A program made the position numbers and the translations under genes. Positions 10,611-49,744 of a stretch of DNA of 64,000 nucleotides are shown in pieces. The notes beneath the pieces were generated by a model. It searched no databases and had not been told where the DNA came from. It worked only from the letters and a program-made list of their open reading frames with translations. Source of the DNA: Gemmatimonadota bacterium (GTDB lineage Bacteria; Gemmatimonadota; Gemmatimonadetes; Gemmatimonadales; Gemmatimonadaceae); assembly GCA_026387915.1 (NCBI GenBank), contig JAPLKS010000009.1:62001-126000 (forward strand), read 5' to 3'. The first letter of the stretch is position 1. Each line of letters opens with the position of its first letter.

Positions 10611-12008
10611 ATGGCCGCGCGCGCGAAGACCGTGTACCGCTGCACCGAATGCGGTGCCGACTCGCCAAAATGGGCGGGGAAGTGCGATGCGTGCGGCGAG
10701 TGGAATACGCTGCACGAAGAGATCGTCGCGTCGCGTACCGTCGAAGGGGGCGCTGCGCGACGGAAGGCGGGGGTCACATCGCTCGGGAGTGGCGGCACGG
10801 TGGTGCCCACGCCGCGATTGGCTGACGTGGTGGGCGCCGAGAGTAATCGCCTCACGACGGGTCTCGCTGAGTTCGACTTTGTGCTCGGCGGCGGCATTGT
10901 GCCGGGGTCTATGGTGTTGGTCGGCGGCGAGCCCGGCATTGGCAAGAGCACCATTCTCCTGCAAGTCGCTGCGCAGCTTGAGACGCTCGGTGTGCGCACG
11001 CTCTATGTGAGCGGTGAAGAATCTCCATTGCAGGTCAAGCTGCGTGCGGACCGGTTGGGCACGGGGGCGCTCGACGTTTCGTTGCTCGGCGAAACGCTGC
11101 TCGAGACGATACTGGCCACTGCCGCCGAACGGACGCCCACGGTGATGGTGGTGGATTCCATTCAGACGGTGTTCACCGGCGATCTCGAAGGCGCGCCTGG
11201 AAATGTCGGGCAGGTGCGTGAGTGCGCCGCACGACTGATGCGCTTTGCCAAGGAGAGCGGCACCGCCGTGATTGTGGTGGGACACGTCACCAAGGGTGGT
11301 GGCATCGCTGGCCCGAAGACGCTCGAGCACATCGTGGACACGGTGTTGTATTTCGAGGGAGAAGGGTCGCTCGATCACCGTGTGCTGCGCGCCACCAAGA
11401 ACCGGTTCGGTTCGGTGGATGAGATTGGAGTCTTCCGCATGACCGAGCGGGGGTTGATCCCGGTCGATAATCCCTCGGCGCTTTTTCTCGGCGATCGCGA
11501 AGGGCACCACGCATCGGGCAGTGCCGTGACCGCCACGCTCGAAGGCAGCCGTCCGATGCTGCTCGAGGTTCAAGCGCTCGCGGCGAAGGCTGGCTTTGGC
11601 ACGCCACAGCGTGTGGCCACCGGCTTTGACGGCCGCCGACTCGCACTCTTGCTCGCCGTGCTCGACAAACGCGCCGGGTTATCGTTTGCGCAGCTTGACG
11701 TATTCCTGAACATCGTCGGCGGCGTACGCGTGCAGGAGCCAGCGGCTGACTTGGCCGTGGCCGCAGCACTCGCCTCGAGTGTCTACGACAAAGCGCTGCC
11801 CCAAGATGCCGTCTTTATTGGCGAGATTGGACTCGGCGGCGAGATTCGCGCCGTAGGTCAGGTGGAACGCCGTATTGCGGAAGCCGAGAAGATGGGAATG
11901 GCGGTCGCCTATGTTGGCGAGCGTTCCGTTCCGAAACGGGCGCCCCGCAACATTCGTGTGGTCGGCGTCAAGGATTTGACGGCGCTCTTCCGGCAACTGT
12001 TCACATGA
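10611..12008 (+). CDS. radA: DNA repair protein RadA (Sms)
   Basis: Helicase-like recombination protein that extends D-loops. 465 residues in three parts. First a zinc finger, CTECGADSPKWAGKCDACGE, with CX2C...CX2C. Then a RecA-like ATPase with Walker A GEPGIGKST (Lys112) and the RadA-specific KNRFG motif (TKNRFGSVDE). Last a Lon-protease-like C-terminal domain with FIGEIGLGGEIRAV. Starts 2 nt after dnaB and overlaps ispD by 4 nt (ATGA). Confidence 0.96.
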   Translation: MAARAKTVYRCTECGADSPKWAGKCDACGEWNTLHEEIVASRTVEGGAARRKAGVTSLGSGGTVVPTPRLADVVGAESNRLTTGLAEFDFVLGGGIVPGSMVLVGGEPGIGKSTILLQVAAQLETLGVRTLYVSGEESPLQVKLRADRLGTGALDVSLLGETLLETILATAAERTPTVMVVDSIQTVFTGDLEGAPGNVGQVRECAARLMRFAKESGTAVIVVGHVTKGGGIAGPKTLEHIVDTVLYFEGEGSLDHRVLRATKNRFGSVDEIGVFRMTERGLIPVDNPSALFLGDREGHHASGSAVTATLEGSRPMLLEVQALAAKAGFGTPQRVATGFDGRRLALLLAVLDKRAGLSFAQLDVFLNIVGGVRVQEPAADLAVAAALASSVYDKALPQDAVFIGEIGLGGEIRAVGQVERRIAEAEKMGMAVAYVGERSVPKRAPRNIRVVGVKDLTALFRQLFT

Positions 12009-12703
12009 CGCGCGACGTCGGTGTGGTGATCGTGGCGGCGGGCGCGAGCACGCGCACGCAAGTCGAGGCCGGCGGCGAACTCAAGCAGTTCCGCTGGGTG
12101 TCCGGCAAACCGATGTTGCTGCATTCGCTTCACGCGTTTCAGGCACGCGCCGATGTGGCGATGGTCGTTGTGGTGTTGCCGCAGCGATATCTCGGCGATC
12201 CCCCGCCTTGGCTCTTTCAGTGCGACACCGATCGTTTGCTCGTGGCGCCCGGCGGACGGCACCGCGGCGAGAGTGTGTACAACGGACTCGCCGATATTCC
12301 CTCGGAATGTTCGGTGGTGCTCATTCACGATGCTGCGCGCCCATTCCCCACGCCCGAGATGGTGGACCGTGTGGTGGCGGAGGTGCGTCTCGGGCATGGC
12401 GCGATCGCCGCGCTTCCTGTGGTAGACACGCTCAAGGAAGTGGATGGCAGTGGACGCATCGTTCGTACGGTCGAGCGCGAGGGACTCTGGCGCGCGCAAA
12501 CGCCGCAGGGGTTTCCGCGTGAGGCGATTATGCGTGCCCATCAAACGGCGCACGACGACGGCATTGCCGCCACGGATGATGCGGGGCTCTTTGAAAAGCT
12601 CGGACTCCCGGTGGTGGTGGTGCGCGGCAGTGAACGCGCTATGAAAGTCACCGACGCGTCCGATTTCCCGAGGGCGGAGGCGCTGCTTCCGCTCCCTGAT
12701 TGA
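12005..12703 (+). CDS. ispD: 2-C-methyl-D-erythritol 4-phosphate cytidylyltransferase
   Basis: Third step of the MEP isoprenoid pathway: transfers CMP to MEP. 232 residues, GT-A type nucleotidyltransferase fold. The glycine-rich loop VAAGASTRTQVEAGGELKQF keeps Arg17 and the Lys27-Gln pair, but Arg and Lys are 10 apart rather than the usual 7 and the Pro before Lys is Leu. HDAARPF, DTLKEVD and RAQTPQGF are all intact. Overlaps radA (ATGA) and tsaC (TTGA). The pathway partner ispF lies far away at 61701; elsewhere the two are often adjacent. Confidence 0.92.
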   Translation: MTRDVGVVIVAAGASTRTQVEAGGELKQFRWVSGKPMLLHSLHAFQARADVAMVVVVLPQRYLGDPPPWLFQCDTDRLLVAPGGRHRGESVYNGLADIPSECSVVLIHDAARPFPTPEMVDRVVAEVRLGHGAIAALPVVDTLKEVDGSGRIVRTVEREGLWRAQTPQGFPREAIMRAHQTAHDDGIAATDDAGLFEKLGLPVVVVRGSERAMKVTDASDFPRAEALLPLPD

Positions 12704-13371
12704 ACACCGAGCCGAAAGCGATTCCGTTTTGGTCCGAGCCAGAGATCGCGTCGTCGATCTCTGGGACGTTGTTGCATCTCGAGAAGCACGGCGTGTTGGC
12801 GTATCCAACGGAGACGGTGTATGGCTTTGGCGGGGCGATCGATTCCGCGTCGGTTTCGACACTCGTCGCGTTGAAGCGTCGCCCCGACAGCAAGCCGTTC
12901 CTCCTGCTGATCTCCGACAGCTCCATGATCGACCGGATGGGGCTTCAGCTCTCAAACGCCGCGTCGATGCTCGCCGCGCGCTTCTGGCCGGGACCCTTGA
13001 CGCTCGTGTTGGCCGGCGGCGAACGCCGCGTTCCCGCGCGACTGCGAGGCCCGGAGGGTGGAATCGCGGTGCGTTGGACACCGCACCCTGGACTCCAACG
13101 CCTCATTGCTTCGATGGGTGATCCGCTGACCAGCACCAGTGCCAACCTTCCCGGCACTCCGCCCGCGATGAACGCCGCCACGGTCATGCAGGAATGGTCT
13201 CAATCCATTTCGCGCGGCACGTTGCGGGTGTTGGACGGCGGCACGCTCACCGCGTCGGCACCCTCGACGGTGGTGGACTGCACCGGCCGTTCGCCGCGCG
13301 TGATTCGTCCTGGTGCGATTTCGGCGGAAGCGCTCCGCGCGGCGGTGCCAAGTTTGGTCGGTGACCGATGA
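12700..13371 (+). CDS. tsaC: L-threonylcarbamoyladenylate synthase (Sua5/YrdC family)
   Basis: Makes threonylcarbamoyl-AMP for the universal tRNA t6A37 modification. 223 residues, covering the YrdC fold only; no Sua5 C-terminal domain. Signature pieces: GVLAYPTETVYGFGG, LKRRPDSKPFLLL, ARFWPGPLTLVL, VRWTPHP and STSANLPGTPP. The start is TTG at 12700, overlapping the ispD stop. The next gene, an arginine-phosphatase-like enzyme, overlaps by 4 nt, recalling the B. subtilis ywlC-ywlE neighbourhood. Confidence 0.93.
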   Translation: MNTEPKAIPFWSEPEIASSISGTLLHLEKHGVLAYPTETVYGFGGAIDSASVSTLVALKRRPDSKPFLLLISDSSMIDRMGLQLSNAASMLAARFWPGPLTLVLAGGERRVPARLRGPEGGIAVRWTPHPGLQRLIASMGDPLTSTSANLPGTPPAMNAATVMQEWSQSISRGTLRVLDGGTLTASAPSTVVDCTGRSPRVIRPGAISAEALRAAVPSLVGDR

Positions 13372-13835
13372 CCGCGTTGCTCTTCGTGTGCACCGGCAAC
13401 ACCTGTCGAAGCGCGTTGGCCGAGGCCATCGCTTCGCACGCGGTTACCGCACGCGCCCTTCCGGGTGTCACCGTCTCCAGCGCCGGCACCAGTGCGTGGG
13501 AAGGCGCGCCCGCCTCCGACGGGGCCTTACTTGTCGGCATTGAGCGGAAGCTGGACCTCAGCGCGCACCGCGCTCGGCAGCTCAGCCCCGACATTGTTGC
13601 GAACGCATCCCTCATTTTGACGATGGGTCCCCATCATCTTGAGCGTGTGAGTGCGCTGGGGGGCAGCGGCAAATCGCATTTGCTCGTGGATTTTGCCGAA
13701 GGGACCAGCAACGGGCGCGGCATCATCGATCCGTTTGGTGGCGGTCTCGATATCTACCGAGCGACTGCCGACGAATTGCAGCGCCTGATTGGACTCGTGC
13801 TCGATCGCATCGGTGTGTTCCCGGAGGCGACGTGA
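13368..13835 (+). CDS. Low-molecular-weight phosphatase, protein-arginine-phosphatase (YwlE) type
   Basis: 155-residue LMW-PTP fold. The P-loop is FVCTGNTCRS: nucleophile Cys8, Thr12, Cys13, Arg14 (CX5R). In B. subtilis YwlE the equivalent Thr sets specificity for phospho-arginine, where tyrosine phosphatases usually have Ile. The acid loop is IIDPFGGGLDIYRATADEL (Asp121), again closer to YwlE than to classical LMW-PTPs, which have DP-Y/W. The family call is firm; arginine specificity is inferred from these residues and from the adjoining Sua5 gene. No McsB kinase is in the window. ATG overlaps the tsaC stop. Confidence 0.85.
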   Translation: MTALLFVCTGNTCRSALAEAIASHAVTARALPGVTVSSAGTSAWEGAPASDGALLVGIERKLDLSAHRARQLSPDIVANASLILTMGPHHLERVSALGGSGKSHLLVDFAEGTSNGRGIIDPFGGGLDIYRATADELQRLIGLVLDRIGVFPEAT

Positions 13836-14619
13836 ACGACCTTCCCGGTCGATTGACGTTGCTGGGACATCCGGTGGAGCATTCGTTGTCGCCGGTTTTT
13901 CAGAATGCCGCTTTGCGTCATGCCGGAATCCCCGTGGTGTATGAGGCGTTGGATGTCGCGCCCGCGGATTTGGCAACGGTCGCCGGGCTCATGCGCGACG
14001 TCAATGGCGCCGGCAACATTACGGTCCCGCACAAGGTGACTTTCGCGGCTCTGTGTAGCCGACGCTCTCCCGTCGCCGAACGGGTCGGCGCGGTGAATAC
14101 GTTTTGGACGGAAGACGGTGAACTCGTAGGCGACAACACGGACGTCGGCGGCTTTGACGCCGCGGCGCGCGCCGCGTTTGGCGCTCCGCGTCCCGGCCTT
14201 GTGGTGGCCTTGCTTGGTGCTGGCGGCGCAGCGGCCGCGGTTCTTGCCGCCGTTGAGCGATGGGGCGACGCCACCGTTCGCATCCACGCGAGACGCCACG
14301 ACCGAGCCGAGGCACTCGCCGCAGCGTTCCACCAATTTACGGTGTCCGTACCGACCATTGAACAGGCGGTTCGTGGCGCGCAGTTGGTGATCAATGCCAC
14401 CCCGGTGGGGTTACACGGCGACGCGCTGCCGTTGGATCCAGCCCTGCTCGATGCGCGCCCCGATGTCTTTGATCTTTGCTATCGCCGCCAAGAGACGCCG
14501 CTCGTGGTTGCCGCCCGCGCCCGAGGACTGCGCGCCGCCGATGGGCTTGGCATGGTGGTGGAGCAAGGCGCGCTCGCGTTTGAACGGTGGTTCGGTGTGC
14601 GACCCAACCGGGACGTGAT

Positions 14620-14641
<22 letters not shown>
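13832..14641 (+). CDS. aroE: Shikimate dehydrogenase
   Basis: NADPH reduction of 3-dehydroshikimate in chorismate synthesis. 269 residues. Substrate site: HSLSPVFQNAALRHAG and GNITVPHKVTF (catalytic Lys), then DNTDVGGF. The Rossmann loop reads ALLGAGGAAAAV and the C-terminal part has INATPVGLHGD and DLCYRRQETPL. GTG start preceded by GGAGG at 13823-13827; overlaps the previous stop (GTGA). Chorismate also feeds MqnA in this window. Confidence 0.94.
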
Positions 14642-39725: not shown

Positions 39726-40267
39726 TGTCTAATCAATTTTACCCCCTCTTCTATTCGTTCCATTTCTATTTGTTCGGGCTGATTGCGCTCGCCAGCTCGC
39801 TGATGTTCGTCACGCGCAAAAGTCCGGTGTCGGCGGCGATGTGGCTGGTGGCCACGATGTTCGCTTTGGCCGCGCTCTACATCATGCTCGACGCGCAGTT
39901 CGTCGGCGTCATGCAAGTCCTGGTGTACGCCGGTGCGATCATGGTGGTGTTCTTGTTTGTCGTGATGTTGCTCAACCTCGGCTCACCCGCCGACCTCAAT
40001 GACATGCGCGGAAAGTGGGGGCGTCTGCTGGCCGGTTTCGTCGGGCTGGCGCTCGTCGCCGAGTTGATGGCGCTCACCAAGAGCCCACTCGATCTGCGCC
40101 TCGTGCTGCCCGCCGCGACGGACGTCCCGCCAACCGGAGGCGTGATCGCGTCGATCGCCGCTCCGATGTTCAAGGAATATCTCCTGGCCTTCGAACTCAC
40201 GAGCGTGCTGCTGTTGGCAGCCATCATGGGTGCGGTGGTCCTCGCCAAGAAGACAGATGCTCGCTGA
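39725..40267 (+). CDS. nuoJ: NADH-quinone oxidoreductase subunit J
   Basis: Membrane subunit with the pi-bulge helix that gates proton transfer. 180 residues, five helices. Conserved third helix: [20 protein letters not shown] with MLLNLG after it. ATG 39725 on the nuoI stop; the frame is open back to 39548 but that part overlaps nuoI. Overlaps nuoK by 11 nt. Confidence 0.94.
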
Positions 40268-40550
40268 GTCCCTTGCGCTCTCCGCAGCGCTCTTCGCGAT
40301 CGGCGTCGTCGGTGTCCTCACCCGACGGAACGCGATCATCGTGTTTATGTGCGTGGAGCTCATGCTCAACGCCGTGAACCTCTCGTTCGTGGCGCTCTCC
40401 AAGTTGTACGGCGCCACAGGACAGGTATTCGTGATTTTCGTGATGACGGTGGCCGCGGCCGAAGCGGCCGTCGGTCTGGCCATTATCATCGCGATTTTCC
40501 GCCATAAGCAGACCGTGAATCTGCAGAACATCAACCTGCTGCGCGGCTGA
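40257..40550 (+). CDS. nuoK: NADH-quinone oxidoreductase subunit K
   Basis: Small MrpC-like membrane subunit, 97 residues, three helices. The two key membrane acids are visible: Glu in [12 protein letters not shown] and Glu in [14 protein letters not shown] 40257 preferred to the GTG at 40230, which would add nine charged residues. Stop overlaps nuoL. Confidence 0.94.
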
Positions 40551-42715
40551 TGATGACCGCTCCTACTTCCGGCACGCACGCGCTGGCCTCTACGGTCGCG
40601 CAATTCGTGTGGCTACTTCCGCTCCTGCCGCTGATCGGCTTCCTGATCAATGGCACCTTGTCGCTGCTCGCCGTGGCCAAGCTCGGCCCCGATGATCCGT
40701 CGGCCGCAGGCCACGACGCGCATCACGACGACCACGGCCATGGTGACGACCACGGGCATCATGCCGCGCAGCATAAGTTTGCCGGCATCGTGAGCGTGGT
40801 CGGCCCGGGCGTGCTGCTCCTCGCCTTTGCACTCGCCGTCGCGATTTTCGCCGCGATGCGGGGCGTCGAGATGCACGAACCGTATCTGCTCACGCTCTTT
40901 CAGTGGATGCCGGTCGGCGATCTCCATATTGACGCCGCGCTGCAGCTGGATCCGCTTTCGATGGTGATGGTGCTCGTGATCACGGGCGTCGGTTCGCTGA
41001 TTCATATTTTCAGCGTCGGCTACATGCAGGACGATCCGGGCTACCCGCGCTACTTCGCGTACCTGAATCTGTTCGTCTTCTTCATGCTCCTGCTGGTGCT
41101 CGGCGGCAACTATCCGTTGCTGTTCGTCGGCTGGGAAGGCGTGGGCCTCTGCTCGTACTTGCTGATTGGGTTCTGGTTCAGTGAGAAGGCCAATGCCGAC
41201 GCGGGGAAGAAGGCGTTCATCGTCAATCGCATCGGCGACTTCGGGTTCCTCGTCGCGATGTTCCTGTTGTTTGCGAACGTGGGGTCGCTCGACTTCGCCG
41301 GCGTCGCCGAGAATGTCGGCAAGTTGCCGATTGGCGGCGCGGTCATCACGGCGATCTGCCTCTTCATGTTCTTAGGCTGCACCGGCAAGAGCGCGCAGAT
41401 CCCGCTCTACATCTGGTTGCCGGACGCGATGGCCGGCCCAACGCCCGTCTCCGCACTCATCCACGCGGCGACGATGGTCACCGCCGGTGTGTACCTGATT
41501 GCCCGGAGCTCGTTGCTCTTCTCGATGGCCCCTGCGGCCTCGTTGACTGTTGCCGTGGTGGGTGCGCTCACTGCGCTCTTTGCCGCGACGATCGGCCTCA
41601 AGCAGTGGGATATCAAGAAAGTATTGGCGTATTCCACGGTATCGCAGCTCGGCTACATGTTCATTGGCGTCGGTGTCGGTGCTTATACCGCCGGTGTGTT
41701 CCACCTTGTGACGCACGCGTTCTTCAAAGCCTTGCTGTTCCTCGGCTCTGGCTCGGTGATTTTCGCCATGCACCGCGCGTATCACGCCACGCACAACCAC
41801 GATGATGCGCAGGATATGCGCAACATGGGCGGCCTGCGGAAGTACATGCCGGTCACGTGGACGCTGATGTGGATTGCGACGTTGGCCATTGCGGGCATTC
41901 CGCCGTTCGCCGGATTCTTCTCTAAGGACGAAATCCTCGGAAACGTCTTTGCGCGTGCCCACGGCTCCGCGCTGAGCGAAATCACTTGGCTCGGTCTGCC
42001 CGGTGGCACGGTGCTGTTTGTGGTGTGGGGGCTTGGTCTCGCCTCCGCGTTGCTCACCGCCATCTATATGACTCGCATGATGCTCTACACCTTCCACGGC
42101 CCTAACCGGTCGGGGCAGGCGGAGCAGGGGCACCTCGCAGAAGCACCATGGATCATGACCGGTCCGCTCGTGGTGCTCGGTATTGCGAGCGCGGCTGGCG
42201 GTTGGTTGAACTTGCCGGAGCTGATCCCGATCGGTCCGATTGGTGCGCTCGAGAAGTGGCTGGAGCCCGTGGTGGGCGTCGCCACCAAGCGTATCGCTGG
42301 CGCCGAGGGACACGAGGCGGTGTCGACGGAGCAGATGCTGATTGGTATTGCGGTGGCCATCGCGGTGGTCGGTATCACGATCGCCGTGACGCGTCTCAAG
42401 CCGGCGGCGCTTGTCACCAAAAAGGAATCGCCCGCCTCCACGGGCTTTGAGCGCGTGCTCGAGCACAAGTACTTCGTAGATGAGGGGTACGACGCGGCCA
42501 TCATTCAGCCGACCGTGGCCACTTCACGTGTGGTGTTGTGGAAGGGCGTGGATGTTGGACTCATCGACGGACTGATGGTGAACGGCAGCGCTCTCGCGGC
42601 TCGCGCGCTTGGTTGGCTCGGATCGCAACTGCAGTCCGGTCAGATTGGCACCTATGCTTGGGTGCTGCTGATCGGCGTCATCGCGCTCTTGAGCGCCTTC
42701 ACCAAGTATCACTAA
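40550..42715 (+). CDS. nuoL: NADH-quinone oxidoreductase subunit L with His/Asp-rich loop
   Basis: Distal antiporter-like subunit with the long lateral helix. 721 residues; E. coli NuoL is about 613. Proton-channel features: GWEGVGLCSYLLIGFW (key Glu on the TM5-type helix), WLPDAMAGPTPVSALIHAAT and HLVTHAFFKALLFLG (key Lys). Between the first two helices, residues about 52-75 hold GHDAHHDDHGHGDDHGHH, a stretch with some ten His. A second variable segment lies near 585-640. Two in-frame ATGs at 40550 and 40553. nuoM follows after 15 nt. Confidence 0.95.
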   Translation: MMTAPTSGTHALASTVAQFVWLLPLLPLIGFLINGTLSLLAVAKLGPDDPSAAGHDAHHDDHGHGDDHGHHAAQHKFAGIVSVVGPGVLLLAFALAVAIFAAMRGVEMHEPYLLTLFQWMPVGDLHIDAALQLDPLSMVMVLVITGVGSLIHIFSVGYMQDDPGYPRYFAYLNLFVFFMLLLVLGGNYPLLFVGWEGVGLCSYLLIGFWFSEKANADAGKKAFIVNRIGDFGFLVAMFLLFANVGSLDFAGVAENVGKLPIGGAVITAICLFMFLGCTGKSAQIPLYIWLPDAMAGPTPVSALIHAATMVTAGVYLIARSSLLFSMAPAASLTVAVVGALTALFAATIGLKQWDIKKVLAYSTVSQLGYMFIGVGVGAYTAGVFHLVTHAFFKALLFLGSGSVIFAMHRAYHATHNHDDAQDMRNMGGLRKYMPVTWTLMWIATLAIAGIPPFAGFFSKDEILGNVFARAHGSALSEITWLGLPGGTVLFVVWGLGLASALLTAIYMTRMMLYTFHGPNRSGQAEQGHLAEAPWIMTGPLVVLGIASAAGGWLNLPELIPIGPIGALEKWLEPVVGVATKRIAGAEGHEAVSTEQMLIGIAVAIAVVGITIAVTRLKPAALVTKKESPASTGFERVLEHKYFVDEGYDAAIIQPTVATSRVVLWKGVDVGLIDGLMVNGSALAARALGWLGSQLQSGQIGTYAWVLLIGVIALLSAFTKYH

Positions 42716-42730
42716 GGCGCCGACCGGACC

Positions 42731-44317
42731 ATGACTTCACTTCTGAACTCTATCGGCTATAACGGCTGGATCCTTCCGGTCCTGCTCGCGTTACCGCTCC
42801 TGGGCGCCGCGCTGCTGCTGCTTCGCGGCGCGGTGCTCCGCCCAGCAGATGCAACGGCTGACTCCATCATGCGCGAGTCGCGCAGTTGGGCACTGGCCCT
42901 GTTCCTCGTCGAGGCCGTCCTCTCGCTTGGACTGTGGTGGTCGGTCAACAGCACCAGCCCACTCTGGCAAGCTGGATTCCTTGTCCCGTGGATTCCGAAC
43001 TGGGGCGTGGACCTGCGCCTCGGCATCGACGGCATCGCACAGATGCTCATTCTGCTCACCACACTCCTGATGCCGCTCGCGGTATTGGGAAGCTGGACGA
43101 GCATTCGCGAAAAAACCCCGAGCTATTACGCACTGTTGATGGTGCTCACCACGGGGATGCTCGGCGTCTTTATGGCGCTCGACCTCGTGCTCTTCTACAC
43201 GTTCTGGGAGCTGATGCTCGTGCCGATGTATTTGATCATCGGCATCTGGGGCGGCAATCGTCGCCTCTACGCGAGTCTCAAGTTCTTCGTCTACACGATG
43301 GTCGGATCGTTGCTGATGTTGGTGGGCATTCTGTACCTCGGGCTGCAAGCGCCCGATGCGCATGGGCTCCCCGTGTTCAGCTACGATTACATCTTGGCGA
43401 ACGTGCACTTGAGTTCGGTGCAACAGCTCTGGCTCTTTGCAGCGTTCGCGCTGGCCTTTGCGGTGAAGGTGCCGATGTGGCCCTTCCATACGTGGTTGCC
43501 GGACGCGCACGTCGAAGCTCCGACCGCTGGTTCGGTGATCCTGGCCGCGATCATGCTCAAGATGGGAACCTTTGGATTCATCCGGTACGCGCTGCCGTTG
43601 TTCCCGGTGGCCGCGATGCATCCGACCGTGCGATTCCTGTTCTTGTCGCTCGCCGTCATTGGCATTGTGTACGGCGCGCTCGTGGCGATGGTACAGCCCG
43701 ACTTCAAGAAGCTGGTGGCGTATTCGTCGGTCAGCCACCTTGGGTTCGTCATGCTCGGCATCTTCGCATTGACGCCGCAGTCGGTGCAGGGCGCGCTGAT
43801 GGTGAACTTGAGCCACGGCGTGAGCACGGGCGCGCTGTTCCTGCTCATCGGCATGATCTATGAGCGTCGTCATACGCGTCTCATTGAGGATTACGGCGGC
43901 ATCGCCGCGGTGACGCCGATCTTTGCTACCATCCTCACCATCGTGTGCTTGAGTTCGATCGGCGTTCCGGGCACCAACGGATTCATCGGCGAGTTCCTGG
44001 TACTCATTGGCACGTATCGCACGCAGCCCATTTTCTCGGTGATTGCCGCCTCCGCGGTCATCTTTGCTGCGGCGTATTTGCTGTGGGCCTTGCAGCGCAT
44101 CATCTACAACCCGCTCACGAAGCCCGAGAACAAGGGCTTGAGTGATCTCAACCGGCGCGAGATTGCCTTGCTCGTGCCGCTGTTGATCGCGATCCTTTGG
44201 CTGGGTGTGTATCCCAAGCCGGTCCTTGAGAAGACGCAGGCCGCCGCCGACCGCTTTGTGCACCAGGTCGAATCGGGCGGCAACGCGGATGCTGGTCCTA
44301 CGGAGCCCCGGCGATGA
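42731..44317 (+). CDS. nuoM: NADH-quinone oxidoreductase subunit M
   Basis: Antiporter-like proton-pumping subunit. 528 residues, about 14 helices. Key helix FYTFWELMLVPMYLIIGIWGG with its Glu, AFAVKVPMWPFHTWLPDAH (Lys) and the LVAYSSVSHLGFVMLG region. Overlaps nuoN by 4 nt (ATGA). Confidence 0.96.
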   Translation: MTSLLNSIGYNGWILPVLLALPLLGAALLLLRGAVLRPADATADSIMRESRSWALALFLVEAVLSLGLWWSVNSTSPLWQAGFLVPWIPNWGVDLRLGIDGIAQMLILLTTLLMPLAVLGSWTSIREKTPSYYALLMVLTTGMLGVFMALDLVLFYTFWELMLVPMYLIIGIWGGNRRLYASLKFFVYTMVGSLLMLVGILYLGLQAPDAHGLPVFSYDYILANVHLSSVQQLWLFAAFALAFAVKVPMWPFHTWLPDAHVEAPTAGSVILAAIMLKMGTFGFIRYALPLFPVAAMHPTVRFLFLSLAVIGIVYGALVAMVQPDFKKLVAYSSVSHLGFVMLGIFALTPQSVQGALMVNLSHGVSTGALFLLIGMIYERRHTRLIEDYGGIAAVTPIFATILTIVCLSSIGVPGTNGFIGEFLVLIGTYRTQPIFSVIAASAVIFAAAYLLWALQRIIYNPLTKPENKGLSDLNRREIALLVPLLIAILWLGVYPKPVLEKTQAAADRFVHQVESGGNADAGPTEPRR

Positions 44318-45834
44318 ACTACGATTTGCTCATTCCCGGTCAGCTCCTCGGAGCATTGACCCCGGATCTCATTTTGATGAGCGGCGCGATGCTGCTCATG
44401 CTCGCCGCGGCCTGGCGTCCGGAAAGTGAAGGCCACCAACGCACCGTCGGCTTTGGCGCGCTGATCGTCCTGGCCCTCACCTTCGTCTCGGTCCTCTGGT
44501 TTGGTGCCAAGGGCGGCACCGCTGGGCCTGGCGTTATTGCCATGGATCGGTTCCGTTGGGCGGCCGACATCATCTTCCTGCTCGCCGCGATGGGCACCAT
44601 CGCGCTGGGCATCGAACACAACGTCCGCGACGGCATCCGGTACGCGGAGTCGCACGTGCTCGTGCTGTTCGCGACCAGCGGCATGATGATCATGGCCGCG
44701 GCGCGGGATCTGATGATCCTGTTCATTGGCCTCGAACTCATGTCGATTGCCGTATACGTGCTCGTGGGAATCAACCGTCGCTCCGAGCGTTCGGCGGAAG
44801 CGGCGCTGAAGTATTTCCTCCTTGGCGCCTTTGCCACGGGATTCCTGCTGTACGGCATCGCGCTGGTGTACGGCGCCACCGGATCGACGAACATCACCGT
44901 CATCGGCGAGCGCATCTTCTCGTACCAGCTGCACCACAACGCCATGCTGATGGTCGGCATCGGTCTCTTGCTGGTTGGGTTCGGCTTCAAGGTGGCCGCG
45001 GTCCCGTTCCATATGTGGGCGCCCGACGTGTACGAAGGCGCGCCCACGCCGATCACCGCCTTCATGGCCTCAGCCGTCAAGGCCGCGGCGTTCGCCGCGT
45101 TCTTCCGCGTCTGGATCGATGCGTTCAACCTCGTGGATTTCGCGTGGTTCGCCCCGCTCTGGTGGGTCGCCGCGTTTACGATGATCGTCGGCAATGTCGT
45201 GGCGCTGTCGCAGCGCAACATCAAACGTATGCTCGCCTATTCGAGCATTGCGCACAGCGGCTACTTACTCTTGGCGGTGCTCGCGGGCTCGCGGTTGGGG
45301 GCGGCGGCGTTCCTGTTCTATCTGCTCGCGTACACCTTTGCCACCTTCGGCGCCTTCGCCATTGTTGGCACGGTGAGCCGCGCAGGCGAGCAGGGGTTGA
45401 ACATCGCCGACTACGACGGATTGTGGTTGGCGCGCCCGTGGCTCGCGACGGGCATGGCCGTGTGTATGCTCGCGCTGCTCGGCTTTCCGATCTTCGGCGG
45501 CGTCGGGTTCTTTGCCAAGTGGTATCTGCTACAGGCCGCGTTGACGACCCAGTACAACCTGATTCCGCTCGCCATTTTGCTGGTGCTCACCTCGGTCGTG
45601 TCGGCCGGCTACTATCTGGGCGTCATCCGCGCGATGTTCATGAAGCCACGGCAGGAGGATGCCGTTGAGGTTGCCGCAACAGGCAACATCACGCGCCTCG
45701 TCCTTGGCGTGACGATCGCGGCAATCCTCGGGCTCGGTATCTTCCCGTCACAGTTAGTACGACTGACGCGGTCCAGTGTGCCCACCTCGCCCGTTGCCGC
45801 GTCGGCAGCTCAGGGATCGGCCACCGCCCACTGA
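44314..45834 (+). CDS. nuoN: NADH-quinone oxidoreductase subunit N
   Basis: Third antiporter-like subunit, adjacent to NuoK. 506 residues, about 14 helices. LFIGLELMSIAVYVLVGINR has the key Glu, GFGFKVAAVPFHMWAPDVYEGAPTP the Lys, and MLAYSSIAHSGYLLLAVLAG follows. Last of the 14 nuo genes; a clear terminator stands 18 nt after its stop. Confidence 0.95.
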   Translation: MNYDLLIPGQLLGALTPDLILMSGAMLLMLAAAWRPESEGHQRTVGFGALIVLALTFVSVLWFGAKGGTAGPGVIAMDRFRWAADIIFLLAAMGTIALGIEHNVRDGIRYAESHVLVLFATSGMMIMAAARDLMILFIGLELMSIAVYVLVGINRRSERSAEAALKYFLLGAFATGFLLYGIALVYGATGSTNITVIGERIFSYQLHHNAMLMVGIGLLLVGFGFKVAAVPFHMWAPDVYEGAPTPITAFMASAVKAAAFAAFFRVWIDAFNLVDFAWFAPLWWVAAFTMIVGNVVALSQRNIKRMLAYSSIAHSGYLLLAVLAGSRLGAAAFLFYLLAYTFATFGAFAIVGTVSRAGEQGLNIADYDGLWLARPWLATGMAVCMLALLGFPIFGGVGFFAKWYLLQAALTTQYNLIPLAILLVLTSVVSAGYYLGVIRAMFMKPRQEDAVEVAATGNITRLVLGVTIAAILGLGIFPSQLVRLTRSSVPTSPVAASAAQGSATAH

Positions 45835-45852
45835 TCGCCACGTAGTTACAGT

Positions 45853-45889
45853 ACGGGGGCGGATCGCTGACGCGCTCCGCCCCCGTTTT
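45853..45889 (+). terminator. Rho-independent terminator of the nuo operon
   Basis: Stem ACGGGGGCGGA / TCCGCCCCCGT (11 bp) with a 12-nt loop, then TTTCC. The next gene starts 14 nt later, so its promoter must overlap this element, or read-through occurs. Confidence 0.8.
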
Positions 45890-45903
45890 CCTTCGAGAGA
45901 CCG

Positions 45904-47277
45904 ATGATCGCACCTGGAATTTTTCGTCAGTACGACATTCGCGGCGTGGTGGGGCAGGACCTCACGGTCGAAGCCGCGGAAGGCATCGGCCGAGGATTCG
46001 GGGCCCTGCTCGCTGAGCGTGGCGTCACGCCGTGCGTTGCGGTGGGGCGCGATAATCGGCCGAGCGGCACGGCGTTGCGCGACGCACTGGTGCGCGGACT
46101 GCGCGAGACTGGCGTCAGTGTCATCGACATCGGTATTGTGCCCACGCCGTTGCTCTACTGGGCACTGCATCACCTTCCCGTGTTCGGCGGCATCCAGATT
46201 ACCGGGTCGCACAATCCGCCCGAGTTCAACGGATTCAAGATCTGCGTGGGCACGGCGTCGCTTCACGGCGACGGCATCCAGCGACTGCGGCAGTTGATTG
46301 AGTCTGGCGTCTTTCCGGCCGGCGCTGGCACACTGCACGAGGAGGCCGTCATTGATCGGTATGTGGACGACGTGGTCGCACGTATCGGCCCGCTCTCGCG
46401 GCCGCTCAAGGCCGTCATCGACTGCGGCAACGGTGTAGGCGCCTTAGTGGCGCCGCAGCTCTTTCCGCGCCTCGGCATCACGCCGACGCTGTTGTTTGCC
46501 GACAGCGACGGCACCTTTCCCAATCACCACCCCGATCCCACCGTGGTGGAGAACCTGCAAGATCTCATCGCCGCCGTTCGACGAGAAAAGGCCGACATTG
46601 GCATTGGCTTTGACGGCGACGCAGATCGCATTGGCATCGTGGACGCGCACGGCACCATCATTTGGGGCGACTATCTCCTCATTCTCTATGCGCGTGATGT
46701 CCTCGCGCGCACCGGAGCGGGGCAGTCGATCATCTTTGATGTGAAGTGCTCACAAGCACTCCCTGCCGCCATTGCCGCCGCCGGTGGCACACCGGTGATG
46801 TGGAAGACGGGCCACTCCCTGATCAAAGAAAAGATGAAGGAGTTACACGCACCGCTCGCGGGCGAGATGAGTGGCCACATGTTCTTTACCGAAGGGTTCT
46901 ACGGCCACGACGACGCCATTTATGGCGCGGCGCGCGTGCTCCGCATTGTGGCGGACGCCAATCGCCCGGTGCACGAACTGCTCGCCGACATCCCGCAGTA
47001 TGTCTCCACGCCGGAAATTCGCGTGGATTGCCCGGACGAACGAAAGTTCGAGATTGTCGAGGCCGCGACCGCGTATTTCCGCGCTCGCCACGATGTGATC
47101 GATGTGGACGGCGTGCGTATTCTGTATGGCGACGGCTGGGGACTCATTCGCGCTTCCAACACGCAGCCGATTCTTGTGGTGCGCTTTGAGGCTTTGAGCC
47201 AGGCGCGCCTCGATGCCATTCGGGACGACGTGGCCGGCTGGCTCGCCTCGCAGGGCGTGGCGTTCCCCTCGTCGTGA
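45904..47277 (+). CDS. Phosphomannomutase / phosphoglucomutase
   Basis: Alpha-D-phosphohexomutase that supplies hexose-1-phosphates for surface sugars. 457 residues, four domains. Catalytic Ser102 in TGSHNPPEFNGFK, magnesium loop GFDGDADRIGI, sugar loop AGEMSGHMFF and phosphate-binding RASNTQPILVVR. Overall it is closest to AlgC/ManB-type PMM/PGM enzymes. The exact sugar preference cannot be read by eye. N-terminus APGIFRQYDIRG is standard. No promoter is visible beyond the terminator just upstream. Confidence 0.93.
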   Translation: MIAPGIFRQYDIRGVVGQDLTVEAAEGIGRGFGALLAERGVTPCVAVGRDNRPSGTALRDALVRGLRETGVSVIDIGIVPTPLLYWALHHLPVFGGIQITGSHNPPEFNGFKICVGTASLHGDGIQRLRQLIESGVFPAGAGTLHEEAVIDRYVDDVVARIGPLSRPLKAVIDCGNGVGALVAPQLFPRLGITPTLLFADSDGTFPNHHPDPTVVENLQDLIAAVRREKADIGIGFDGDADRIGIVDAHGTIIWGDYLLILYARDVLARTGAGQSIIFDVKCSQALPAAIAAAGGTPVMWKTGHSLIKEKMKELHAPLAGEMSGHMFFTEGFYGHDDAIYGAARVLRIVADANRPVHELLADIPQYVSTPEIRVDCPDERKFEIVEAATAYFRARHDVIDVDGVRILYGDGWGLIRASNTQPILVVRFEALSQARLDAIRDDVAGWLASQGVAFPSS

Positions 47278-47281
47278 CGTG

Positions 47282-49744
47282 ATGCCGCGACGGTCGCTTC
47301 TGCTGTTGGCCGCCTGCGGTGCGCTGCTGCTGGTGGTCGGCCGCATTACCGCGTCGCTCTACGGCGAGTGGACCTGGTTCGAGGTGATGGGTGCGCTCCC
47401 CGTCTATCGGATGCAGTTGACGTACGAGTGGGGAATGCGCGCGGCCTGCGCAATCGTCGCGTTTATCTTCACGGCGCTCCATCTCTATACGGTGCGCCGC
47501 TCTATCGTCTCGATGGTGTTGCCGCGCCGGCTTGGCGGACTGGACTTTGCCGAAGCAGTGCCGGGACGTTTCCTCACCATCGGTGTCGTCACGCTCGCCG
47601 CGATCGTCGCCGTATTGCTCGCGGGCGCACAGGATGCGTGGACGCTCGCCGCGCTCGCTCGCATCGGACTCCCCTTTGGGGAACTCGAACCGTTTCGCGA
47701 TCGCGACGTCAGTTTCTACGTGTATCACCTACCGTTCGAGCGATCGATGTACGAGTGGAGTATGGCCGTGGTGCTACTCGTCAGCACCCTGTGCGTCGTG
47801 CTCTATGCGGTCACACCGAGTTTGCGCTGGGAACGCGGGCTGCTGCATGTCTCCGTGTACGTGCGCCGGCATCTCTCGGTGCTCGCGGCAACGTTGTTGC
47901 TCCTGTTGGCGTGGAGCTACCGCCTCGACGCCATGGATCTCGTGACGGCGGGGAGCGGACCAGACGGCGCGTTTGTGGCCTTCGATCATCGTGGCGCCAC
48001 CTCGGCGCTCACGGGTCTTTCCCTCGGCGCACTCGTGGCATCCGCGGTGGTGCTGTGGGCAGGCTGGCACGGCTACCACCGGGTGTTGCTCACGCTACTC
48101 GGCGTGGTTCTCGTCGTTGGGCCTGTGGAGCGCACCTTTGCCCCCGCCGTCTTTGCGTGGGCCACGAGCGACGAGGTGCGTCGCTCTGCCGACCGCCCAT
48201 ACCTTCGCACACGCGATGCCTTCACCCGTCACGCGTTTGCCATCGAGCGAATTGGCAATGCCGATTCGCTGCAGGTTCCACCGTACGCCATTGCGGAATT
48301 GCCCGGCAAGCTCTCGCAGTGGGACCCGTCGGCGCTCGTGCACGACGCGGAGTTTGCGCGGCGCGGCGTCACGGCCGCCGGGATTGCCAGTGAAGCGACC
48401 GCCGCCGGCGTGCGGGCCCGCGTACTCGCGCGCACGGGCGATGCCGGGAGTGATTGGTGGGTGATCGGCCGTGATGCCGCGGGGGTGGATGCACGGGGAC
48501 GTACGCGCCCCGCTTGGGGTGAGGGGGACGCCGACGGCCGCCGACAACTGCGTGGTGTTCACGTTTGGGCGGGCGCGCCACCATATGCGATTGTCCTCGA
48601 CACGCCGTCGCACATCCTCGCGCCCGCATTCGTCACACGGACGCAACGCCTGCTGCACGCGCTGCATCTCCGTAAACCGATCATCGCCGTTGAGGCGCCT
48701 GCCTCGTCGCACACGCGCGTCCTGTTTCACCGGGACATCATCGACCGGCTCGAACGCCTCGCGCCGTTCTTTGAAGCGGGTCAAAGCATGCAGGCCGTGG
48801 TGGCGGGTGATTCGCTGCTCTGGTTGGTCGATCTCTACGTCGTGAGCGACAACTATCCGCTTGCAGAAGCGGTGCCATTCAATGGCGCTGCGCGACGCTA
48901 CGTGCGACACGCCGCCCTGGCTGTCGTGCAGGCGATGTCGGGAGAGGTGACGTTCTATGCTGATGCGCAGCTCGACCCGATCGCCAAGTCATGGATCGCG
49001 CGTTTTCCTCAGCTATTTCGGCCAATCGCGTCGCTCGATCCATCGGTGGCCGCTCGTCGGCAGGCGAATCTGGACCTTCTCACGTTGCAGTCCACGGTGC
49101 TCACGCGCACCGGATTCACCAACGACACCACACGATTGCGCGCGACCTCGCTCGGAGACGACGCCGATACTGAGCTCGTCGAGCACGGCCCCTCACCCCT
49201 CGTAGGCCCTAGCAGTGATCCCGTGCTCGCCCGGTCCGTCGCGTTGATTGGCGCCGACGACGCGGTCCACGGCACCCTCGTGGCAACCGGCGGTCCAGCG
49301 CCCCACACGCGCTGGTATGCGCGCGAGCGGTCGGGGCAGTGGACCGCACTGATGGGTGCGCTGCAGCACGCCGTAGATAGTGCCGGCCTCACCAAAGGAC
49401 TCGGCGCCCCCCGTCGAGGCCGCGTGACCGTCGTGCCGGTTCCGGCGGGGCTGGCGTATGCCCAGTCGTTCTACGACTGGCCCGCGGATGAGCCCCCGCG
49501 CCTCGTCGCGGTCGCGACCGCCATTGTCCCCTCTGGCGGTGGGGCGGCGGTCATTCGGACCGGCCACTCCCTCGCTGAGGCGCTGGGTCACGCCGTGGCA
49601 GGCTCTGAGACCGTGCCCGCCGCGCTCCGCGACCGAGCGGCCGCGCTGTACGCCGCCATGGAGCGGGCGATCCGTAGCGGTGACTGGCATGCGTTTGGCG
49701 ACGCCTTTGGGGCGCTTGGAAAACTGCTCCGTGCCGCTCCCTAA
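47282..49744 (+). CDS. UPF0182 (COG1615) membrane protein
   Basis: 820 residues, function unknown for the family. The N-terminal third has about seven membrane helices (LLLLAACGALLLVVG, ACAIVAFIFTALHLY, TIGVVTLAAIVAVLLAG and more). Family-like segments are RDVSFYVYHLPFERSMYEW and, at the start of the large soluble domain, ERTFAPAVFAWATSDEVRRS and RPYLRTRDAFTRHAF. The C-terminal 500 residues probably face the outside. ATG 47282 is 4 nt after the phosphomutase stop (GTG 47279 also possible). The lineage-specific acidic C-terminal tail found in some relatives is absent. Confidence 0.82.
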   Translation: MPRRSLLLLAACGALLLVVGRITASLYGEWTWFEVMGALPVYRMQLTYEWGMRAACAIVAFIFTALHLYTVRRSIVSMVLPRRLGGLDFAEAVPGRFLTIGVVTLAAIVAVLLAGAQDAWTLAALARIGLPFGELEPFRDRDVSFYVYHLPFERSMYEWSMAVVLLVSTLCVVLYAVTPSLRWERGLLHVSVYVRRHLSVLAATLLLLLAWSYRLDAMDLVTAGSGPDGAFVAFDHRGATSALTGLSLGALVASAVVLWAGWHGYHRVLLTLLGVVLVVGPVERTFAPAVFAWATSDEVRRSADRPYLRTRDAFTRHAFAIERIGNADSLQVPPYAIAELPGKLSQWDPSALVHDAEFARRGVTAAGIASEATAAGVRARVLARTGDAGSDWWVIGRDAAGVDARGRTRPAWGEGDADGRRQLRGVHVWAGAPPYAIVLDTPSHILAPAFVTRTQRLLHALHLRKPIIAVEAPASSHTRVLFHRDIIDRLERLAPFFEAGQSMQAVVAGDSLLWLVDLYVVSDNYPLAEAVPFNGAARRYVRHAALAVVQAMSGEVTFYADAQLDPIAKSWIARFPQLFRPIASLDPSVAARRQANLDLLTLQSTVLTRTGFTNDTTRLRATSLGDDADTELVEHGPSPLVGPSSDPVLARSVALIGADDAVHGTLVATGGPAPHTRWYARERSGQWTALMGALQHAVDSAGLTKGLGAPRRGRVTVVPVPAGLAYAQSFYDWPADEPPRLVAVATAIVPSGGGAAVIRTGHSLAEALGHAVAGSETVPAALRDRAAALYAAMERAIRSGDWHAFGDAFGALGKLLRAAP

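Follow-up and report, generated by a model that had tools for sequence, protein, structure and literature searches.

A YwlE-type phosphatase gene and a predicted CtsR-free phospho-arginine system in Gemmatimonadota

The phosphatase gene and its neighbours

The window, the whole 64,000-nucleotide stretch of a Gemmatimonadota contig that was analysed, carries an overlapping run of four forward-strand genes, ispD-sua5-ywlE-aroE. The run opens with ispD (12005..12703), assigned by a profile match. It continues with a Sua5/TsaC L-threonylcarbamoyladenylate synthase gene (12700..13371), the product of which scores 136.9 bits against TIGR00057, above the cut-off of 123.2. This gene overlaps by four bases the start of the third (13368..13835), which encodes a low-molecular-weight (LMW) phosphatase of the YwlE type. 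The 155-residue product is a predicted protein-arginine phosphatase, an assignment that draws on Pfam, PDB sequence matches, trees, profiles and a structure model. Its stop codon is overlapped by the GTG start of aroE (13832..14641), a shikimate dehydrogenase gene and a conserved neighbour in Gemmatimonadota.

The phosphatase reading frame is intact from ATG to stop. Frame and translation agree exactly with those in an earlier note on this DNA, which had described a YwlE-type phosphatase outside Firmicutes, and the host lineage, Gemmatimonadota, bears that description out. The P-loop CTGNTCRS (residues 8-15, 13389..13412 on the forward strand) holds the nucleophile Cys8 and the phosphate-binding Arg14 and is invariant in 21 aligned YwlE-like proteins. 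The acid loop DPFGGGLDIY (residues 121-130, 13728..13757, same strand) begins with the general acid Asp121 and ends with Tyr130; D121, P122, G124 and Y130 are invariant in 21 aligned proteins. Both the CX4CRS P-loop and the Asp general acid of the LMW phosphatase domain are therefore present (C8, R14, D121), and Pfam LMWPc (PF01451) matches with 91 bits against a cut-off of 23.2. A profile search of the genome found no other LMWPc protein. The position termed PX5, which corresponds to Thr11 in B. subtilis, is occupied by Thr12 (codon 13401..13403, forward strand), as is characteristic of YwlE-type enzymes.

The order of the Sua5 and phosphatase genes had been equated with the ywlC-ywlE neighbourhood. 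Among Gemmatimonadota, 19 of 20 loci with a Thr-type and 20 of 20 with an Ile-type phosphatase have a Sua5 gene upstream on the same strand, no more than 1.5 kb away, and counted over all loci the figure is 56 of 80; given this recurrence, chance is ruled out as the source of the pairing. To that extent the comparison stands, but the Firmicutes genes are mostly separated by a gap of about 400-1500 nt, and the likeness is one of order, not of spacing. In 13 loci of other phyla the pairing is mostly missing, being seen in L030 and L068 only.

A McsA-McsB-ClpC operon in the same genome

Phosphorylation of arginines in proteins is generally described as a stress system of Gram-positive bacteria. 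For the lineage studied here, the earlier note had suggested either a phospho-arginine system, with a McsB-like kinase and ClpC, or an orphan phosphatase retained without a kinase. Searching the genome for McsA, McsB and ClpC revealed all three, adjacent to one another, in a lolC-lolD-mcsA-mcsB-clpC operon, which lies on the window's own contig, 54 kb after the window ends (locus L007, contig positions 176500-184500). McsB has 361 residues and matches PF00217 with an E-value of 3.2e-61, which rules out an orphan phosphatase. Its best PDB matches are protein-arginine kinases (about 8e-82), with metabolic arginine kinases ranking far lower, and the catalytic residues R29, R31, E120, E121, H123, R125, C167, N170, R207 and E212 are all kept. 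McsA matches NF053706 (E 1.8e-35) and has eight cysteines in four CxxC pairs together with a C-terminal UVR motif. Scores against the NCBIfam models stay under the curated cut-offs for both proteins, at 372.3 of 385 and 359.2 of 500 bits for McsB and 122.3 of 210 bits for McsA. The ClpC N-domain keeps E32 and E109, the latter equivalent to E106 of B. subtilis; E32 and E106 are named as phospho-arginine-binding glutamates in the part of PMC12583610 consulted. CtsR, which had been proposed as part of the same genome check, is absent from this genome by profile search.

Very probably, this Gemmatimonadota bacterium has a complete system for protein arginine phosphorylation, in which the product of the window gene serves as the eraser. 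The sequence basis comprises the gene, its motifs and its placement on the YwlE side, along with predicted McsB and ClpC with intact key residues, and McsA, in the same genome; enzyme activity, target proteins, the handover to ClpP and the function in the cell are what we infer. In such a system, McsB, activated by McsA, would phosphorylate protein arginines, and ClpC, through an N-domain with two phospho-arginine-binding glutamates, would carry the tagged proteins to ClpP. The YwlE-type phosphatase would strip the tag via a Cys8 phospho-enzyme with Asp121 as general acid, and Thr12 would favour phospho-arginine over phospho-tyrosine. Since CtsR is missing, the system probably acts on damaged proteins and on regulators other than CtsR.

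Supporting a wider distribution, McsB was found in 241 and LMWPc in 248 of 249 sampled Gemmatimonadota genomes, each at least 80% complete. A profile search for CtsR gave 0 of 249, with a model that does detect CtsR upstream of mcsA in the Firmicutes locus L108. B. subtilis has both McsB and CtsR. The B. subtilis control genome gave no match to PF00217 or to CtsR, so its negatives are untrustworthy for both, and 22/22 Firmicutes and L108 served as controls instead. McsB also occurs in 46 of 49 genomes with a YwlE-like gene, including 22/22 from Firmicutes. Eight genomes of the phylum lack a McsB match, and four of these have Thr-type phosphatase genes.

The operon and its key residues are likewise preserved. 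The clpC gene lies directly downstream of mcsB in 19/19 Ile-type loci, 15/15 loci with kinship code f1, 5/5 Thr-type loci with code f2, 19/19 other Thr-type loci, 22/22 Firmicutes and 5/7 loci of other phyla; for mcsA directly upstream, the corresponding counts are 18/19, 15/15, 5/5, 19/19, 22/22 and 6/7. Both ClpC glutamates are present in 19/19 Ile-type, 5/5 other-phyla and 23/23 Firmicutes sequences, as well as in 20/20 of a Thr group that was labelled while still containing L097, an Ile genome. The McsB catalytic positions are kept in 16 f1 Thr, 5 f2 Thr, 19 f2/f3 Ile (f7/g66 Ile genomes were left out of this comparison), 18 other-order Thr, 7 other-phyla and 22 Firmicutes sequences, the exceptions being Q121 in a single f2 Thr row and a gap at R29/R31 in a single Ile row.

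The genes that precede mcsA in the present genome, lolC-lolD, belong to lipoprotein release. A lolD-like gene is also found upstream of mcsA in 18/19 Ile, 15/15 f1 Thr, 5/5 f2 Thr and 19/19 other Gemmatimonadota operons, in 2/7 other-phyla loci (L133, L137) and in 0/22 Firmicutes.

Ile-type orthologs and the selectivity position

The earlier note had taken the P-loop Thr as the residue that selects phospho-arginine. According to the relevant portion of PMC8001253, Thr at PX5 goes with phospho-arginine and Ile with phospho-tyrosine, and PtpB with the T11I exchange shows an increase of about 6-fold in PNPP hydrolysis. A 2013 result on YwlE, cited in the same portion, describes T11I as lowering phospho-arginine and raising phospho-tyrosine activity.

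A codon pattern for CTGNTCR matched 185 of the 249 genomes, and a reversed control matched one, which excludes chance motif matches. The wider pattern C-[T/S]-G-N-[T/I/M]-C-R matched 230 genomes, the additional 45 consisting of 40 with CTGNICR and five with CSGNTCR, where a TCN codon specifies Ser. DNA or protein sequence confirmed each of the 40 Ile cases (25, 14 and G232). Of the 19 genomes that the wider pattern did not match, seven were read: G136, G010 and G062 (L151-L153), G012, G147 and G203 have CSGNTCR, and G043 has Val.

Several features of the Ile-type genes mirror those of the window gene. Sua5 is directly upstream in 20/20 and AroE downstream in 19/20 tested loci, and both occur within a short stretch around the gene in 14/14 further loci, where presence and not adjacency was scored. 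The YwlE acid loop is kept beside the P-loop CTGNICRS. The YwlE-diagnostic residues T9, S50, G124 and Y130, all found in the window protein, are retained in 25/25 Ile rows; these residues, G124 and Y130 among them, separate YwlE-type enzymes from classic protein-tyrosine phosphatases (PTPs). All 25 are also nearer to a YwlE profile than to a classic-PTP profile, by a median of 47 bits, when the PX5 column is masked; the YwlE profile was built from Firmicutes and other-phyla YwlE, with Gemmatimonadota excluded. The Ile-types are orthologs of the Thr-type phosphatase and not another paralog.

The exchange is not accompanied by a detectable loss of the kinase. McsB is present in 38/40 Ile genomes (missing in G198 and G219) versus 181/185 CTGNTCR genomes (Fisher p 0.29), and a link between Ile and McsB loss is unsupported. 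Ile stands at PX5 in 40 of 249 genomes and McsB occurs in 38 of these, which shows that McsB can co-exist with a phosphatase lacking Thr there. The idea that an additional phosphatase of the Thr type stands in for the Ile type can be discarded, as no Ile genome has a CTGNTCR match. Among 43 further LMWPc matches in 44 genomes (the 40 Ile genomes and four others), 36 were read and none had a C-x-G-N-T-C-R P-loop; their P-loops are of the CHGN, CNGN or CYGN kind, in part accompanied by GDLDP, or ArsC-like.

Trees that contain 25 of the 40 Ile sequences indicate that the exchange occurred repeatedly. A careful 59-row tree built without the PX5 column requires five Thr/non-Thr changes, and its starred branches force at least three when Thr rows are counted (four for Ile rows). 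A single change was found in 0% of 200 bootstrap trees. One sister pair in the tree (95/93), G087 with Thr and G105 with Ile, falls within a single genus. In approximately unbiased (AU) tests, a single clade of Ile-types and classic PTPs gave p 0.154 with 125 rows and p 0.034 with 48 rows.

On balance, it is likely that the Gemmatimonadota eraser has repeatedly changed between Thr and Ile or Val at PX5, at one conserved locus and mostly beside intact McsB and ClpC. In Ile lineages, phospho-arginine would then either mark proteins for degradation irreversibly, with the phosphatase now serving other substrates, or be removed by an Ile-type arginine phosphatase, in which case the Thr rule is wrong. 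The earlier claim thus stands as far as the presence of Thr12 in the window protein goes, while the Ile-type orthologs of its relatives call Thr alone into question as a marker.

A related, more tentative possibility is that the phosphatases of this phylum have dual or relaxed specificity and act on phospho-arginine whatever residue occupies PX5, with T9, S50, G124, Y130 and the DPFGG loop setting selectivity and the Thr/Ile exchange tuning a side activity. The retention of all four residues in the Ile rows, their affinity to the YwlE profile and the similar McsB frequencies in Ile and Thr genomes are consistent with this, but the published effect of T11I on YwlE argues against it. This possibility accommodates the window protein as an arginine phosphatase, though not Thr12 as its selector. 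If the repeated Thr/Ile change is real, either outcome in Ile lineages would alter what can be concluded from the sequence of a family member. The natural Thr/Ile variants, one pair of which lies inside a single genus, offer a test of what makes an arginine phosphatase and of whether McsB needs an eraser.

One of the two Ile genomes without a McsB match, G198, is a single-contig relative of 5.5 Mb with its Ile-type phosphatase at the usual locus (L247). Loss of the whole phospho-arginine system is possible there.

Comparison with tyrosine phosphatases and arsenate reductases

An ordinary LMW protein-tyrosine phosphatase, acting on phospho-tyrosine (for instance with a BY-kinase) and resembling YwlE through ancestry only, is an unlikely identity for the window protein. 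The superfamily and fold are common to both, and the structural ranking separates them by small steps. The predicted model (pLDDT 95.4) matches YwlE best (4kk4/4kk3, Z 26.5, rmsd 1.3/1.0 over 149/148 residues), followed by MptpA (Z 24.8), YfkJ (24.2), Wzb (23.4), human LMPTP (about 22.7) and ArsC (about 19). The best PDB sequence matches are YwlE entries, 4pic (E 5.5e-22) and 1zgg (9.7e-19), with Wzb (2fek) lower at 2.7e-12, and the window protein scores 159.3 bits against the PX5-masked YwlE profile versus 92.0 for classic PTPs, a lead of 67 bits. Classic LMW-PTPs have Ile at PX5 in 23/23 rows, where the window protein has Thr. Together with the four diagnostic residues and the presence of McsB in the genome, this speaks against a tyrosine phosphatase, as does the lack of polysaccharide genes among the identified neighbours ispD, sua5 and aroE.

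Phylogeny is less decisive. From 208 extracted sequences, 125 entered the main tree, 59 of these the careful tree and 48 a later AU test. In the 125-row tree, from which the PX5 column was omitted, a branch with SH-aLRT 85 sets apart the 23 classic PTPs (Wzb, YfkJ-like and others), and the window protein lies within a 16-member Gemmatimonadota Thr-type set with 97% SH-aLRT. A grouping with tyrosine phosphatases, which the earlier note had named as the outcome that would tell against an arginine phosphatase, is hence not what the tree gives, as the protein nests among YwlE-type rows; however, placing it beside classic PTPs is not rejected by the AU test (p 0.255; 48 rows, 150-odd columns), so the tree alone does not decide the matter. 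The nearest named relatives are from Gemmatimonadota, several of them Gemmatimonadaceae, at 67-46% identity (L008-L020), and farther ones come from Firmicutes, Krumholzibacteriota, Zixibacteria, Kiritimatiellota, Verrucomicrobia and Planctomycetes. The scan for relatives used peptide patterns including FVCTGNTC and is biased to Thr-types, and residue counts from it were not used.

An arsenate reductase of the ArsC branch can be dismissed: apart from the common fold, it has weak NCBIfam matches of 34.2 and 32.8 bits in its favour, far under the cut-offs of 174.3 and 215, and CTGNTCRS with DPFGG differs from the CVENSCRSQ/CTGNSARSQ form of ArsC-like relatives.

The phospho-arginine receptor site of McsB

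The available text of PMC8370763 assigns the phospho-arginine receptor site of B. subtilis McsB to R337, D338, R341 and S285. The McsB encoded beside the present clpC has T, S, R and S at these positions, keeping R341 and S285 and having lost R337 and D338. Both are missing from 41/41 Gemmatimonadales McsB sequences (the present one, 16 f1, 5 f2 Thr and 19 Ile), the order name being drawn from genome kinship codes and named relatives. D338 is kept in 17/18 sequences of other Gemmatimonadota orders, 5/7 of other phyla and 22/22 Firmicutes, and R341 is universal. As Thr and Ile Gemmatimonadales alike lack R337/D338, the loss follows phylogeny, and its candidacy as a partner of the Thr-to-Ile change is refuted.

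The order-wide loss, with Ser285 mostly replaced by Phe in McsB of the phylum, suggests a McsB without feedback from its own product. Allosteric self-activation of McsB by phospho-arginine is probably weakened or different in this order. The sequences without R337/D338 come from loci L007, L100, L289-L307 and L309-L328.

Relation to known phospho-arginine systems

With YwlE of Bacillus and PtpB of Staphylococcus, the window protein has in common the fold, the CTGNTCRS and DPFGG motifs, the Sua5 neighbourhood and co-occurrence with McsB. It differs from solved YwlE in sequence (31-39% identity over aligned residues), in having aroE downstream, where B. subtilis ywlE has rpiB/glyA as neighbours, and in a genome that lacks CtsR. 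Classic LMW-PTPs (Wzb, YfkJ, PtpA, human LMPTP) have the same fold and chemistry, but carry Ile at PX5, another acid loop and Phe in place of Tyr130. Similarly, the Gemmatimonadota operon resembles the CtsR-McsA-McsB-ClpC operon of Firmicutes in its mcsA-mcsB-clpC order and its catalytic and phospho-arginine-binding residues, and departs from it in lacking CtsR, in having lolC-lolD upstream of mcsA and in the loss of R337/D338 from Gemmatimonadales McsB.

McsAB outside Firmicutes has been published before, as consulted parts of PMC10128030 and PMC5177608 report it for Chlamydia, likewise from a Gram-negative phylum. There, mcsAB is separate from clpC and has been suggested to be horizontally acquired (PMC10128030, in the part consulted), whereas the Gemmatimonadota genes stand together with clpC, and McsB is nearly universal in the phylum. 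Phospho-arginine without a known McsB is described for Mycolicibacterium in a portion of PMC9604228. A search of open-licence PMC articles for McsB or arginine phosphatase in Gemmatimonadota/Gemmatimonadetes found nothing relevant.

The near-universal CtsR-free McsAB-ClpC-YwlE set would extend the phospho-arginine system to a whole further phylum. Beyond the gene itself, the analysis adds this phylum-wide system, the receptor pair missing from Gemmatimonadales McsB and, most importantly, the recurrent exchange between Thr and Ile at the selectivity position.

As a separate observation on the window, AT skew is strongly negative (about -0.2) at positions 40001-48000 and weaker elsewhere.
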